Shown: positions 1,962 to 49,197 of the stretch, one piece after another
Layout of the letters: the number at the start of each line of letters is the position of its first letter
Position numbering within the stretch: the first letter of the stretch is position 1
DNA from: Flavobacteriales bacterium
Lineage (GTDB): Bacteria; Bacteroidota; Bacteroidia; Flavobacteriales_D; Sanyastnellaceae
Length of the DNA stretch: 62,184 nt
NCBI GenBank assembly: GCA_029245065.1
Contig: JAQWQB010000097.1
Span: 1-62,184 of the forward strand
Reading direction: 5' to 3'
Position numbers and translations under genes: made by a program
Notes under the pieces: model-generated
What the model was told of the DNA's origin: nothing
The model's input: the letters and a program-made list of their open reading frames with translations, nothing else
The model's database searches: none

Positions 1962-2720
1962 ATGAAAAAAGTACTTTTTAGTTTCGCAGCTGTCTTATTG
2001 ACACTCGGAGCATTTGCACAGAACCCAATTGATCGCCTTTACTCTACGTATAGTGAAAACGAAGATTTCACGAAGATTACCTTTTCAGGTAAGATGTTCG
2101 AAATGGCGAACCACATCGAAGTAGAAAATGCGGAAGACCAAGAAATGGTTGAAGCATTTGGAATGATTGAAGGTGTGAGCATCGTAATGACAGACAGCAT
2201 GACCAACGCTCGTGTTGCTTTCAAAGACGCTATCAAGAAAGCCCAAGGGAGCTTCGAGAACCTTATGACAATTGATGACAAGAAGGGAAAGGCTGAAATC
2301 CTAATTAATGAACGCAACGGCGTTGTGGAAGAGGTATTGATCATTGCTGGTGGCGATGATGGCTTCGTAATCGCAGCACTTTGGGGAGACATCGATCTTG
2401 GGAAATTAGCAACCATTACGCGTGAGCTTCAAATTAACATGATGGATGAATATGACGGAGAAGCAGCTGAGGCGGCTCGCAAAGTCAACATGTATCCAAA
2501 CCCTGCAACGGGAGGAAACATTTCTATTGACATCCCATCTGAATTGAAGAGTGCACAAATCAGTGTGATTGATTTGAACGGAAGAACAGTAGTTGAAACC
2601 GTTGCGAACGGCACGAAATTCGAAATTTCTTCTGCAGACCTTGACAATGGAATTTACATTGTGAAGGTGGCCCAAGGAAACAACATTGTTTTCACTGAAC
2701 AATTGGTGATTCAGAAATAA
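1962..2720 (+). CDS. secreted DUF4252-like protein with T9SS sorting domain
   Basis: A 252-residue exported protein. Residues 1-19 are a signal peptide ending at FAQ. Residues 20-165 resemble DUF4252, a Bacteroidota domain of unknown function, with the typical late motif in which a small aspartate-containing strand follows ALWGDIDLGKLATI. Residues 175-252 are a type A T9SS sorting domain: MYPNPATGG, a central DLNGR turn, and a YIVKV...EQLVIQK ending. The protein should cross the outer membrane by T9SS and be attached or released. It is monocistronic and ends at a strong terminator. Joining DUF4252, usually seen in small lipoproteins or periplasmic proteins, to a sorting domain is somewhat unusual. 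Confidence 0.8.
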   Translation: MKKVLFSFAAVLLTLGAFAQNPIDRLYSTYSENEDFTKITFSGKMFEMANHIEVENAEDQEMVEAFGMIEGVSIVMTDSMTNARVAFKDAIKKAQGSFENLMTIDDKKGKAEILINERNGVVEEVLIIAGGDDGFVIAALWGDIDLGKLATITRELQINMMDEYDGEAAEAARKVNMYPNPATGGNISIDIPSELKSAQISVIDLNGRTVVETVANGTKFEISSADLDNGIYIVKVAQGNNIVFTEQLVIQK

Positions 2721-2790: not shown

Positions 2791-2817
2791 AAAAAAAGGT
2801 TCGCGCCCGAACCTTTT
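2791..2817 (-). terminator. intrinsic terminator of the candidate small RNA
   Basis: On the minus strand AAGGTTCG pairs with CGAACCTT around a 4-base loop and is followed by seven T. It is 140 bases beyond the stop codon of the ABC exporter gene, so it more likely closes the structured RNA described next, and also stops any read-through from the exporter. Confidence 0.85.
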
Positions 2818-2914
2818 CAATTTCCACTAGGGTGGAATAATTACTTATTTAACTGATTGTTTAAGTTGTACCAAGAAACAATCTATACCTCTATAACGGA
2901 GGCACTTAAATAAG
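2791..2914 (-). ncRNA. candidate structured small RNA (unassigned)
   Basis: About 120 noncoding bases on the minus strand fold by perfect complementarity into an ordered structure. P1 pairs CTTATTTAA (2914-2906) with TTAAATAAG (2852-2844). It encloses P2 (CCTC/GAGG, 2902-2888) and P3 (GATTGTTT 2883-2876 with AAACAATC 2862-2855, 13-base loop), making a three-way junction. P4 follows (TTCCAC/GTGGAA, 2837-2822, 4-base loop), then a terminator hairpin with a U-tract. A promoter-like sequence lies immediately upstream. No reading frame of note is present. It could instead be a processed 3' UTR of the ABC exporter mRNA. I do not recognise it as 6S RNA, tmRNA, SRP RNA or RNase P RNA. Confidence 0.6.
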
Positions 2915-2917
2915 GTT

Positions 2918-2949
2918 TCAATTTATGATATTATCGTGGTAAGATGCAA
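2918..2949 (-). promoter_or_regulatory. putative promoter of the candidate small RNA
   Basis: On the minus strand TTG (2949-2947), a 21-base spacer and TAAATTGA (2925-2918) match the Bacteroidota -33/-7 pattern with one change in the -7 box. Transcription would begin near 2912, at the base of stem P1. Confidence 0.45.
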
Positions 2950-2957
2950 GTGGATGG

Positions 2958-4781
2958 TTAACCAAATTGCTGCATTTCGACCAATGACCTATACACACCA
3001 TTTAATTCCATCAATTCAGCGTGCGTTCCTTGCTCAGCAATAGCTCCGTCTTTCACCACTGCTATGACATCAGCATTTTGAATGGTACTCAAACGGTGAG
3101 CAATAACCAATGATGTTCTGTTCTTCATTAGCTTGAAAATTGCCTCTTGGACAAGCTTTTCAGACTTCGTATCAAGCGCAGATGTTGCCTCGTCCAAAAT
3201 GAGGATCGGTGGGTTTTTGTAAACTGCCCTAGCAATACTCAAACGCTGTTTTTGTCCACCTGATAGCTTTCCACCCCCATCACCGACAGCGAAATCATAC
3301 GTTCCTGGTAGGTCCTTGATAAACTCTTCAGCATTTGCCACTCGTGCGGCCTCCTTCACTTTTGCGATATCAGGAGATTCGAATCCCAAGGCGATGTTCG
3401 AGGTCACAGAATCATTAAACAGGATGCTGTCTTGAGTAACGACGCCCATTTTAGCGCGCACATCTGTTAGTTTCAAATCGGTTATCGGCGTGCCATCAAT
3501 TTTAATTTCTCCGCTGGCAACGTCGTAGAATCTACCCAACAAGTTAGCCAACGTAGATTTCCCACCACCGGAAGGCCCAACCAATGCAACTGTTTGTCCC
3601 TTTTTGATGGTCAGGTCAATTCCTTTGATCACCTCTTCTTCTTTGTAAGAGAAACGGACATTTTTGAATTCGATATCGCTGGTGAAATCTTCCAAATCGC
3701 GGGCGTCTTCTTTATCAGCGATGGATACATCGGCATGAAGAATTTCGTTGATACGTTCAATGCTGGCTCCACCTTTGTTGATCTTAAAGATGGCGTCTGA
3801 AAAGGCTTTTGCTGGTGGAATAATCTGTGAAAAAACGACGAGGTACCCAATGAATAAATCACCACTCATTCCGTCGCTATCACTTAGTACTAGTTTTCCT
3901 CCTACATACAGAAGAATAGCAATTACAGACAGGGAAATAAATTCGCTCATGGGCGAAGACAAGTATTCCCTCTTGTAGAGTTTACGCATCAATTCGAAGT
4001 ACGACTGATTAACCTCGTCAAACCGTGATTTGAATTGTTTTTCCCCGTTAAACGCCTTGATGACTTTAAGTCCGCCCAACGTTTCTTCAATTACGGAAAT
4101 CAAATCTCCCAAGCGGGTCTTTCCACGTTTCGCAGCATTCTTCAGGCTCTTCGCAATCCTACTAATTAGGAAACCAGAGACAGGGAGGAATATCAGGGCG
4201 AACAATGTCAATTTCCAACTGATAATGAATAGCGTTGCGAGTGAAATGACCACCATGATCGGTGACTTAAACAAGATCTCCAAAGTTCCAATGACCGAGA
4301 ACTCGACTTCCATCAAGTCATTCGTCATTCGTGAAATCACATCGCCTTTGCGCTCGTCTGAATAAAAACCAATCGGTAAATCAACTGCTCGATCATACAG
4401 GTTTTTGCGAAGGTCTCTTGCCACCCCTGTTCTGATCGTTGCCAAGCTGTACAAGGCTAAGTAGTTCACCAAATTCTTGAGCAAAGCCAATAGCACAATG
4501 GCCACGCACATGTATAGCAGCGCTTCTTCTTTTCCGTGTTCAACTACAAATGAATCAAGCCCATTTGCCAATCTTGAATACCAGTATTCAGTAGTCATCT
4601 GATCTGAAGCAACATTTGCTTTCGCGACCGACTCTTCTGTGAAAAGGATGCGAAGAAACGGCACTACAGATAGGAAGGTAAATAGTGATAGGACAGCATT
4701 CAATAAGTTGAAAAATATGTTAGCGTACAAGTTCACCTTGTACTTCGCAACCATTCGAAAAATGTCCCAAAACTTCTTCAT
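2958..4781 (-). CDS. ABC exporter, fused permease/ATPase (MsbA-like)
   Basis: A 607-residue half-transporter that should act as a homodimer in the inner membrane, exporting a lipid or other hydrophobic substrate by ATP hydrolysis. Residues 1-340 are the type IV exporter membrane domain with about six helices. Residues 370-607 are the ATPase: Walker A GPSGGGKST at 402-410, signature LSGGQ near 513, Walker B LILDEAT near 535, and H-loop AHR. It starts inside a TAATG overlap with the purB stop, so the two are co-transcribed. The similarity is to lipid A exporter-like proteins, but the substrate cannot be read from the sequence. Confidence 0.87.
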   Translation of the reverse strand: MKKFWDIFRMVAKYKVNLYANIFFNLLNAVLSLFTFLSVVPFLRILFTEESVAKANVASDQMTTEYWYSRLANGLDSFVVEHGKEEALLYMCVAIVLLALLKNLVNYLALYSLATIRTGVARDLRKNLYDRAVDLPIGFYSDERKGDVISRMTNDLMEVEFSVIGTLEILFKSPIMVVISLATLFIISWKLTLFALIFLPVSGFLISRIAKSLKNAAKRGKTRLGDLISVIEETLGGLKVIKAFNGEKQFKSRFDEVNQSYFELMRKLYKREYLSSPMSEFISLSVIAILLYVGGKLVLSDSDGMSGDLFIGYLVVFSQIIPPAKAFSDAIFKINKGGASIERINEILHADVSIADKEDARDLEDFTSDIEFKNVRFSYKEEEVIKGIDLTIKKGQTVALVGPSGGGKSTLANLLGRFYDVASGEIKIDGTPITDLKLTDVRAKMGVVTQDSILFNDSVTSNIALGFESPDIAKVKEAARVANAEEFIKDLPGTYDFAVGDGGGKLSGGQKQRLSIARAVYKNPPILILDEATSALDTKSEKLVQEAIFKLMKNRTSLVIAHRLSTIQNADVIAVVKDGAIAEQGTHAELMELNGVYRSLVEMQQFG

Positions 4782-18820: not shown

Positions 18821-19531
18821 TTATGCCTTCAAGTTAGCCAATTTCGTTTGAGCATGCATTACGACCGCAATTCCAGCGGTTTCAGTTCGAAGACGGTAAT
18901 TCCCTAAGCTAACAACCTTCCAACCTGCCTTCTGAGCAAGCAGCACCTCATCTTCAGAGAAGTCCCCTTCTGGACCAATAGCAACAATTGAGGGAACAGT
19001 AGGATCATATTCTTGGTAGAAATCGGTCGTCTTCTGCTCTCCGATGTAGGCGATGTATCCTTGTCTGTCTTTGTACATTTCAATCATTTCTGCAAAATCC
19101 CTAGGAGGGTGAATGTCTGGCTTGTACAAATGCAGGCTCTGTTTCATAGCAGAAAGTCCGATGCTTTCCCACCTGTCTTCGCGTGCATGCTTCCGCTCGC
19201 TGTGATCACACCAGATCGGTTGAATTTCGGTACACCCGAATTCTACAGCCTTCTCAATAAACCACTCAAATCGATCTCTTTTTTTGGTAGGTGCAATGGC
19301 TACGGTCAAGTCTGCTGTGTCTTTGTCGTAGCGTTCTACTTTGTGGAGTTGTAGTCTGCAACCATTGGCAGCCGCATTCATTATACTAGCTTCATATAGC
19401 CCTCCCATTCCATCAGTAAAAACCAAGTCATCATTGATTTTCATGCGCAACACTTTAATGGCGTGCGCAGACTCTTCAGGTGAGAGTAAAGCTTCGGTTT
19501 GGTGAATTTCAGTGGTGTAGAATAATTGCAT
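18821..19531 (-). CDS. rsmE: 16S rRNA (uracil-1498-N3)-methyltransferase
   Basis: RsmE uses S-adenosylmethionine to methylate U1498 of 16S rRNA. The 236 residues have the N-terminal PUA-like part (HAIKVLRMKINDDL) and a SPOUT domain with the AdoMet knot: IGPEGDFSEDEV near residue 185 and LGNYRLRTETAGI near 208. It is the first gene of an operon with DUF4359 and the hexosaminidase. The pckA terminator lies just upstream. Confidence 0.94.
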   Translation of the reverse strand: MQLFYTTEIHQTEALLSPEESAHAIKVLRMKINDDLVFTDGMGGLYEASIMNAAANGCRLQLHKVERYDKDTADLTVAIAPTKKRDRFEWFIEKAVEFGCTEIQPIWCDHSERKHAREDRWESIGLSAMKQSLHLYKPDIHPPRDFAEMIEMYKDRQGYIAYIGEQKTTDFYQEYDPTVPSIVAIGPEGDFSEDEVLLAQKAGWKVVSLGNYRLRTETAGIAVVMHAQTKLANLKA

Positions 19532-47442: not shown

Positions 47443-47515
47443 CACGGGTGGCAGGACTCGAACCTGCAGCCAACGGTTTTGGAGACCGCTACTCTACCAA
47501 TTGAGCTACACCCGT
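47443..47515 (-). tRNA. tRNA-Trp (anticodon CCA)
   Basis: A 73-base cloverleaf on the minus strand. Acceptor ACGGGTG/CACCCGT, discriminator G as expected for Trp, D arm AGCTC, anticodon loop CTCCAAA, T arm with GTTCGAGTC. The 3' CCA is not encoded. It is placed between tuf and secE. Confidence 0.97.
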
Positions 47516-47525
47516 GAATATGGCG

Positions 47526-47555
47526 AAAGAAGGTGATCCTAAAACCACCTTCTTT
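47526..47555 (-). promoter_or_regulatory. tuf-tRNA-Trp intergenic hairpin
   Basis: On the minus strand AAAGAAGGTG pairs perfectly with CACCTTCTTT around a 10-base loop. No T-run follows, so it is more likely an RNA processing or mRNA-stabilising element at the 3' end of tuf than a terminator. Confidence 0.6.
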
Positions 47556-47580
47556 ACCATTATTCTGAATTAAGTATTTC

Positions 47581-48768
47581 TTATTTCGTGATCGAAGTCA
47601 CCTGACCTGCACCAACGGTACGGCCACCTTCACGGATCGCAAAACGAAGTCCTTGGTTCATCGCTACTGGCTGGATCAATTCAACGTCGATTGAAACGTT
47701 ATCTCCAGGCATTACCATTTCACGACCTTCCCCTAGGATGATCTCACCAGTTACGTCTGTTGTTCTTAGGTAGAACTGTGGACGGTAACGGTTGTGGAAT
47801 GGAGTGTGACGTCCACCTTCTTCTTTCTTCAAGATGTAAACCTCAGCTTTGAAGTGTGTGTGAGGAGTAATCGAACCTGGCTTAGCGATAACCATACCAC
47901 GCTTGATTGCTGCCTTATCAACACCACGAAGAAGTAGTCCAACGTTATCTCCTGCTTCACCACGGTCGAGGATCTTGCGGAACATCTCAACACCAGTCAC
48001 AGTTGACTTCATCTTTTCTTCTTGCATACCAACGATATCTACTTCTTCTCCAGAGTTGATAACTCCAGTTTCGATACGTCCTGTTGCAACAGTACCACGT
48101 CCTGTGATAGAGAATACATCCTCGATAGACATCAAGAATGGCTTTTCGTTATCACGTGGTGGGATTTCGATCCATGTATCAACAGAGTCCATCAATTCTA
48201 GAACTGTGTCTACCCACTTCCCTTCTCCGTTCAATGCACCAAGTGCTGAACCTTTTACTACTGGAGTGTTATCTCCATCGTACTCGTAGAAAGAAAGAAG
48301 TTCACGAACCTCCATTTCAACTAGTTCAAGTAGCTCTTCGTCATCAACCATATCCACTTTGTTCATGAATACAACGATACGAGGTACACCTACCTGACGT
48401 CCTAGAAGGATGTGCTCACGTGTTTGAGGCATTGGTCCTTCAGTAGCCGCTACAACCAAGATTGCACCGTCCATCTGAGCTGCACCAGTTACCATGTTCT
48501 TCACATAATCCGCGTGACCTGGACAGTCAACGTGTGCATAGTGACGATTCGCTGTTGCGTACTCTACGTGAGAAGAGTTAATTGTGATTCCACGCTCTTT
48601 TTCCTCAGGAGCATTATCGATTTGGTCGAAGCTACGGGCTTCTGAGTGTCCTGCGTCAGACAATACTTTAGTAATTGCTGCAGTCAACGTAGTTTTCCCG
48701 TGATCAACGTGACCAATGGTACCGATATTAACGTGAGGCTTCGAACGGTCAAAAGTTTCTTTAGCCAT
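47581..48768 (-). CDS. tuf: elongation factor Tu
   Basis: 395 residues. G-domain motifs: GHVDHGKTT (P-loop, residue 18 on), the switch I region [22 protein letters not shown] and the GSALGAL loop. Domains 2 and 3 follow, with the conserved C-terminus [14 protein letters not shown]. It brings aminoacyl-tRNA to the ribosome. It is flanked by the four tRNA genes upstream and tRNA-Trp downstream, as in tufB of enterobacteria. It is the only tuf copy in this window. Confidence 0.98.
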
Positions 48769-48815
48769 AGCCAGAGTGTTTAATTAATTGTTCCTTGTTC
48801 TAATTCGTTTGTTCG

Positions 48816-48887
48816 AGCCAATGACGGGAATTGAACCCGTGACCTCTTCCTTACCAAGGAAACGCTCTACCCCTGAGCTACATCGGC
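48816..48887 (-). tRNA. tRNA-Thr (anticodon GGT)
   Basis: A 72-base cloverleaf on the minus strand. Acceptor GCCGATG pairs with CATTGGC (one G-U pair). Anticodon loop CTTGGTA, T arm with GTTCAATTC. The 3' CCA is not encoded. It directly precedes tuf. Confidence 0.97.
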
Positions 48888-48891
48888 TTTA

Positions 48892-48965
<74 letters not shown>

Positions 48966-49011
48966 TTATTAGAGTCAGACAAAATTATGCTGCCTCTATA
49001 AGTTTGTTTTG

Positions 49012-49094
49012 TGGGGATAATAGGATTCGAACCTATTCAGTCTGAGACAACAGATTTACAGTCTGCCCCGGCTCTCCAACTCCGGCGTATCCCC
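49012..49094 (-). tRNA. tRNA-Tyr (anticodon GTA)
   Basis: An 83-base class II tRNA with a long variable arm. Acceptor GGGGATA/TATCCCC, anticodon loop CTGTAAA, discriminator A. The 3' CCA is not encoded. Confidence 0.97.
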
Positions 49095-49123
49095 TCACTT
49101 CTTTTCTTGGTTAAAAAAGAATG

Positions 49124-49197
49124 AGCCGATGGAGGGATTCGAACCCCCGACCCGCTGATTACAAATCAGCTGCTCTGGCCAACTGAGCTACATCGGC
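49124..49197 (-). tRNA. tRNA-Thr (anticodon TGT)
   Basis: A 74-base cloverleaf. Acceptor GCCGATG/CATCGGC, anticodon loop TTTGTAA, T arm GTTCGAATC. It is the first gene of the tRNA-tuf-rpo transcript. The 3' CCA is not encoded. Confidence 0.97.

Follow-up and report, generated by a model that had tools for sequence, protein, structure and literature searches.

The window that we analysed is a stretch of 62,184 nucleotides from the draft genome of a Flavobacteriales bacterium (143 contigs; G000 in our labels, which we also use for other genomes). Near one end of it, the gene for an ABC exporter of 607 amino acids (2958-4781, minus strand) is the upstream neighbour of a gap at 2791-2949, and the gene for a DUF4252 protein with a type IX sorting domain (1962-2720, plus strand) converges on the gap from the other side. 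Judging from the sequence, this gap likely houses a gene for a small RNA (sRNA), most likely at 2888-2791 on the minus strand. The original prediction for the gap was a structured sRNA with its own promoter and terminator. In other genomes, we found relatives of 2888-2791 with the same layout of promoter, RNA, and terminator, and this conserved unit supports an sRNA gene with both signals. As had also been claimed, no known RNA family matches: neither the stretch at 2791-2949 nor the sRNA had a match in Rfam at the gathering score, and a relaxed threshold gave 16 weak matches, the best of which (E = 0.055) was to a microRNA family and lay outside the sRNA. The covariance model for 6S RNA from Rfam did not match the sRNA at the gathering or the relaxed threshold, and the suggestion of a 6S-like regulator is unsupported. 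A search of a phage collection with the element gave no match. Elsewhere in the window, there are five tRNA genes on the minus strand (47443-49197).

The predicted promoter is of the ECF type. Its -35 element is TGAAAC (2915-2920, minus strand) and its -10 region is CCGTTATA (2892-2899, minus strand), with CGT at 2898-2896; the -10 region was assigned by motif and conservation. These elements match TGAAACNT-N13-CCGTNATA exactly, and the layout can be written as TGAAAC-N16-CGT at 2920-2896 on the minus strand. If the C of CGT is set at -10 (by convention), then the 5' end of the sRNA is near 2888. The 3' end is given by the T run of an intrinsic terminator (2791-2817, minus strand), so the predicted transcript (2791-2888, minus strand) is about 98 nt long. 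The original prediction put the 5' end near 2912 and the length at 115-125 nt, downstream of TTG-N21-TAAATTGA. That motif is present at 2949-2918, but by eye it is absent from the two syntenic relatives. What is conserved is the ECF-type promoter, which overlaps two of the proposed stems and moves the start to about 2888.

Across 16 related sRNA genes, TG[AT]AAC-N16/17-[CG]GT is present in 14, at 14-15 nt ahead of the conserved core (the exceptions are in G025 and G263), although this count is partly non-independent, as our search models (R1 and R2) contained the promoter and 8 of the 16 genes are in R2. Among the genes that were first found through the core pattern alone (G007b, G018, and G025), two of three have the promoter. 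None of 11 target sites (described below) has it. A strict rule for the terminator was satisfied by 10 of the 16 sRNA genes; those that missed were G024 (interrupted by N), G006b (contig end), G075, G026b, G007b, and G018.

We found these relatives in several ways. We examined 29 exporter loci in other genomes, and 27 of them include DNA beyond the exporter's stop codon. By eye, a relative of the element follows the exporter in two of the 27 (G011 and G031, from one genus), with a convergent gene after it. The window and these two loci have in common TTGAAACCTT, a spacer, CCGTWATAGA, GTTTCWTGGTA, CAATCAGTTAA, and the terminator; the closing stem of the original prediction (P1) is not what they share. 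When 60 relatives were searched by DNA, most matches were short and due to chance, and the elements in G011 and G031 were not among them; it was synteny that revealed these two. The exact two-block pattern was found only in G000, G011, and G031 across the 399 genomes of the order, and the wider family came to light with sequence models. Model R1 matched 26 of 114 genomes of the family at E up to 0.05, with part of these matches due to chance, and model R2, with a limit of E = 0.005, matched 42 of the 399 genomes (24 in the family and, weakly, 18 outside it). We took the 18 matched genomes outside the family (best E = 2e-4) as chance; neither of the two that we inspected (G274 and G066) has the promoter or the terminator at the match. 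Weak matches within the family in G220, G245, G003, G034, G287, G035, G032, and G217 also look like chance. The good matches are of two kinds: sRNA genes with a promoter and a terminator, and sites with neither, which lie antisense to a large gene, over its start codon. Both kinds occur in G000, where a 21-mer from the sRNA (within what we call pairing block 2) is found in two places with up to three mismatches. We considered the second place as a paralogous sRNA gene and dropped this idea, as it sits over a start codon.

Some relatives have arrangements of their own. Two units of promoter, RNA, and terminator stand in a row in L129 (G232), L131 (G027), L243 (G263), and L244 (G030), from genera g8 and g11; we sought targets for the variant sRNAs of genus g8 and found none. 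Another unit of this kind is common to L104 1094-1250 (G024) and L126 (G004:C28 near 19152-19248), which are from one genus. It includes a GGTTAAGG stretch that resembles one in L077 (see next paragraph).

Exact matches to TGAAACNT-N13-CCGTNATA occur once in G000, twice in G011, and twice in G031. If one mismatch is allowed, the motif is found at 16 places in 6 genomes and the reversed pattern at 3. In G011 and G031, the second of the exact matches (L077 1501-1640 and L078) lies ahead of another noncoding stretch, which differs in sequence from the sRNA and has a terminator. A place with one mismatch that is common to the same two genomes (L092 and L093) is followed by about 150 nt of noncoding DNA, conserved in both, that include a strong hairpin and a T run (L092 had no match in Rfam). 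Another lies before a small lipoprotein-like gene, in G000 (L094, G000:C143 near 5161) and in G011 (L089). Also, the -35 element TGAAAC (2920-2915) is complementary to GTTTCA (2879-2874) in the conserved core of most of 8 related genes, which may be chance or a trace of the gene's origin.

The original prediction took a set of nested stems as the defining feature of the RNA. The stems can be found in the sequence. P1 has all of its 9 pairs (2914-2906 with 2852-2844), and hairpins of 4 pairs (2902-2899 with 2891-2888), 8 pairs (2883-2876 with 2862-2855), and 6 pairs (2837-2832 with 2827-2822) are there as well. The stem of the terminator is longer than described, with at least 10 pairs (2817-2808 with 2803-2794) instead of 8. 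The claim that the fold is beyond chance also stands, as the 159-nt stretch has a z score of -3.73 and none of 200 shuffled sequences folded as well. The sRNA alone (2888-2791) has a z score of -4.04, and the plus strand of the stretch likewise folds well (z = -3.22). Conservation is another matter. We looked for covariation in an alignment of 8 related sRNA genes (A5). The terminator stem is paired in 95.7% of cells and has double-sided changes in 7 of 10 pairs, so it covaries. The share of paired cells is 62.5% for P1 and 37.5% for the 4-pair hairpin; both stems are unsupported and lie largely in promoter DNA, with the 5' arm of P1 within the promoter spacer and the 4-pair hairpin over the -10. 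The 8-pair hairpin (2855-2883, minus strand) is partly conserved, with 71.9% of cells paired (mainly the inner pairs are kept), but none of its pairs shows a double-sided change. For the 6-pair hairpin, just 1 to 3 of the 8 sequences have letters in both arms, and it too is unsupported. Apart from the terminator, consensus folding gave one helix, in which the promoter's -35 element takes part. Between consensus folding and covariation in A5, the terminator was the only part for which we found a conserved fold.

The sites of the second kind point to a target. The large genes that they cross begin with ATGAAACATTCTAC (encoding MKHST) or a variant of it (MTHFT in G075, MNHST in G007, and MKNST in G026). 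In G000, this gene is at G000:C36:2491-2 and runs for 830 amino acids up to the end of the contig; its match to the HYR domain is below the cut-off. The protein from G011 has 2867 amino acids; HYR_4C stretches occur in it seven times, and its tail is a type IX sorting domain. Those from G004, G025, and G075 have 2511, 2697, and 2472 amino acids and, by eye, C-termini that resemble sorting domains. So, in the four genomes where the gene could be read to its stop codon, the target is a giant adhesin-like protein of 2472-2867 amino acids. The target in G007 looks like another kind of large secreted protein.

In G000, the sRNA and the adhesin mRNA are complementary over two blocks. Block 1 (2866-2885, minus strand) pairs at 18 of 20 nt with the region of the start codon, with a mismatch opposite the U of AUG, and block 2 (2842-2864, minus strand) forms 23 uninterrupted pairs with the 5' UTR. 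The arms of the 8-pair hairpin overlap both blocks. In the duplex, 18 pairs span the start codon along with the first codons, and a bulge of 6 nt on the target side separates them from the 23 pairs; the computed energy is -48.2 kcal/mol (this and the other energies are for the plain duplex, with accessibility left out). As a background, we took 150-nt stretches from the two strands of the window, 1646 in all, excluding the sRNA locus itself; their mean energy was -19.1 (standard deviation 3.9) and the best was -34.3. In all 9 of the own-genome pairs that we computed, the energy was below those of all 300 dinucleotide-shuffled targets (z = -3.4 to -8.7). We also checked 13 of the 21 start-like matches in G000: the adhesin was at -48.2 and the remaining 12 were at -12.4 to -24.5. 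Of 21 such matches in G011, we checked 10: the adhesin was at -50.6, the sRNA locus itself was at -103.5, and the other 8 were at -20.9 to -31.0. The value of -31.0 kcal/mol belongs to the start of a secreted-type gene (L276, G011:C1:3707372-3707388, encoding MKHFTFLF), which is a possible minor second target of the G011 sRNA, going by the computed duplex.

We also compared how well each sRNA fits the target from its own genome and those from other genomes. We computed all combinations for nine genomes that have both partners (G000, G011, G004, G075, G025, G007, G030, G263, and G026); G031 and G024 were left out as near-duplicates. (G007 and G026 have two copies of the sRNA, of which one was used, and all four choices were computed.) The own pairs total -407.3, as compared to a mean of -294.8 and a standard deviation of 19.5 for permutations. 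None of 200,000 permutations was as low, and in a separate run, 1 of 100,000 had the same total and was evidently the identity; this test ignores the family tree, and partners within one genome share kinship. An exchange of G030 and G263, two genomes of one genus, gives the lowest total of any assignment (-409.4). With 62 nt of the sRNA, the own partner ranks first in 7 of 9 rows and 8 of 9 columns, and with 50 nt in 6 of 9 rows and 7 of 9 columns; using the other copy from G007 gives 6 of 9 for both. The sRNA from G026 prefers the target from G004, the sRNA from G263 prefers the target from G030, and the target from G263 prefers the sRNA from G007. With the 5' UTR alone, the own partner is the best in just 3 of 9 rows and 3 of 9 columns, so the tracking is strong in total but comes mostly from the region of the start codon. 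Blocks that the sRNA and the target share can also be seen by eye, such as GGTAAAAAC in G011, ATTTGAAG in G004, ATTGGTACGAG in G075, and AATCCGTTAAAAAAGCA in G026.

We propose that 2888-2791 encodes a trans-acting sRNA that represses a type IX-secreted adhesin and ties it to an ECF envelope response. Given the promoter motif and the computed pairing, we consider this role quite likely. A putative ECF sigma factor that senses envelope load or type IX secretion load would turn on the sRNA. We suggest this signal because of the nature of the target and because of a precedent in Flavobacterium psychrophilum, where the regulon of an ECF-type promoter motif (SM6) is described as holding type IX secretion system (T9SS) genes and the sRNA Rfp11 (PMC9723704). 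The sRNA would cover the adhesin's start codon together with about 38 nt of its 5' UTR, which would block ribosome entry, and pairing would probably also expose the mRNA to decay. Stressed cells would thereby stop making a giant type IX cargo.

The same sRNA and the same target could instead be joined in activation, with pairing that activates or stabilises the adhesin mRNA. There are precedents: FoxJ of Fusobacterium activates some of its targets (PMC11005410), and Rfp18 is described as required for full levels of a protease mRNA (PMC9723704). However, pairing over the start codon and the first codons is the usual geometry for repression, and we consider activation to be unlikely. The original prediction implied that the fold is the function (as in 6S RNA, for instance). 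Besides the z scores of -3.73 and -4.04, the full proposed structure does better than shuffled columns (none of 500 had as many cells paired). But 7 of its 11 double-changed pairs sit in the terminator, most of P1 and of the 4-pair hairpin falls before the predicted start, consensus folding yields little beyond the terminator and a helix with the -35 element, and Rfam has no match, so we think it very unlikely that the fold accounts for the gene.

We give similarly little credence to the idea that the RNA is the 3' UTR of the exporter's mRNA, perhaps processed, and lacks its own promoter. The sRNA is on the same strand as the exporter and directly past its stop codon, and this arrangement is syntenic in G011 and G031, but the promoter is at a conserved distance from the core, and in other genomes the unit of promoter, RNA, and terminator lies away from the exporter. 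(Read-through from the exporter into the sRNA is possible.) Finally, several relatives have an ATG at the place where ATGTTTCAT... could be read as the start of a very short protein (MFH...). By eye, these frames stop after a few codons and at differing places, and the window has TTG instead; the ATG in the relatives is explained by being the complement of CAT in the target. That the locus is a coding gene seems extremely improbable. Repression of the adhesin in trans is the reading that we prefer.

A broader version of this proposal, on which we are evenly divided, is that in this family of Flavobacteriales, an ECF response linked to type IX secretion has a noncoding arm, with several sRNA genes, sometimes in tandem, that share one ECF promoter. 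Lineages would keep one sRNA in antisense register with the start of their own giant secreted adhesin, and the first codons (MKHST) would be held by RNA pairing and not by protein function.

Repression of this kind is known elsewhere: sRNAs driven by ECF sigma factors that shut off envelope proteins have been described in Proteobacteria and in Fusobacteria (PMC1804206, PMC11005410). MicA and RybB are sigma-E-dependent sRNAs of Salmonella and E. coli (PMC1804206) and form the sRNA arm of an ECF response that lowers envelope mRNAs. The window sRNA has the corresponding features: an ECF-type promoter (by motif only), an independent gene with an intrinsic terminator, and computed pairing with the translation start of an mRNA for a secreted protein. 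Unlike those of MicA and RybB, its predicted target is a giant type IX cargo instead of a porin, and the pairing is far longer (18 + 23 pairs). Using Rfam, we found no sequence relation to either of them. FoxI and FoxJ of Fusobacterium nucleatum are sigma-E-dependent sRNAs that repress an abundant envelope protein (PMC11005410). The likeness is that of an ECF-dependent sRNA (by promoter motif in our case) that acts against an envelope protein outside the Proteobacteria, but they are from another phylum and have other targets, and FoxJ activates as well.

Closer relatives of this bacterium have sRNAs that are similar in part, going by their descriptions in PMC9723704. Rfp11 of F. psychrophilum, which belongs to the same order, is under the ECF-type motif SM6 together with T9SS genes; the passages of that paper that we used name no target for it. 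Rfp18, from the same species, is a flavobacterial sRNA with predicted targets among secreted proteins and adhesins. It differs in pairing via the third of its stem-loops and in being required for a protease mRNA to reach full levels, and those passages mention no ECF promoter for it. In a literature search with most subscription journals outside its scope, we found no ECF-dependent sRNA from Bacteroidota with a named target; Rfp11 comes nearest, but the passages that we used name no target for it. What appears to be new here is an ECF-driven sRNA with predicted pairing of antisense length to a giant type IX cargo. If this is right, then it provides a testable link between envelope stress and the control of type IX cargo, and a trans-encoded sRNA with the pairing length of cis antisense RNAs. 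Also, an inverted "copy" of an sRNA that lacks a promoter and lies over a start codon offers a route to pairs of sRNAs and targets in uncultured bacteria. We do not claim membership in a named family, but in our analysis, the window sRNA probably works like MicA and RybB and like FoxI and FoxJ.
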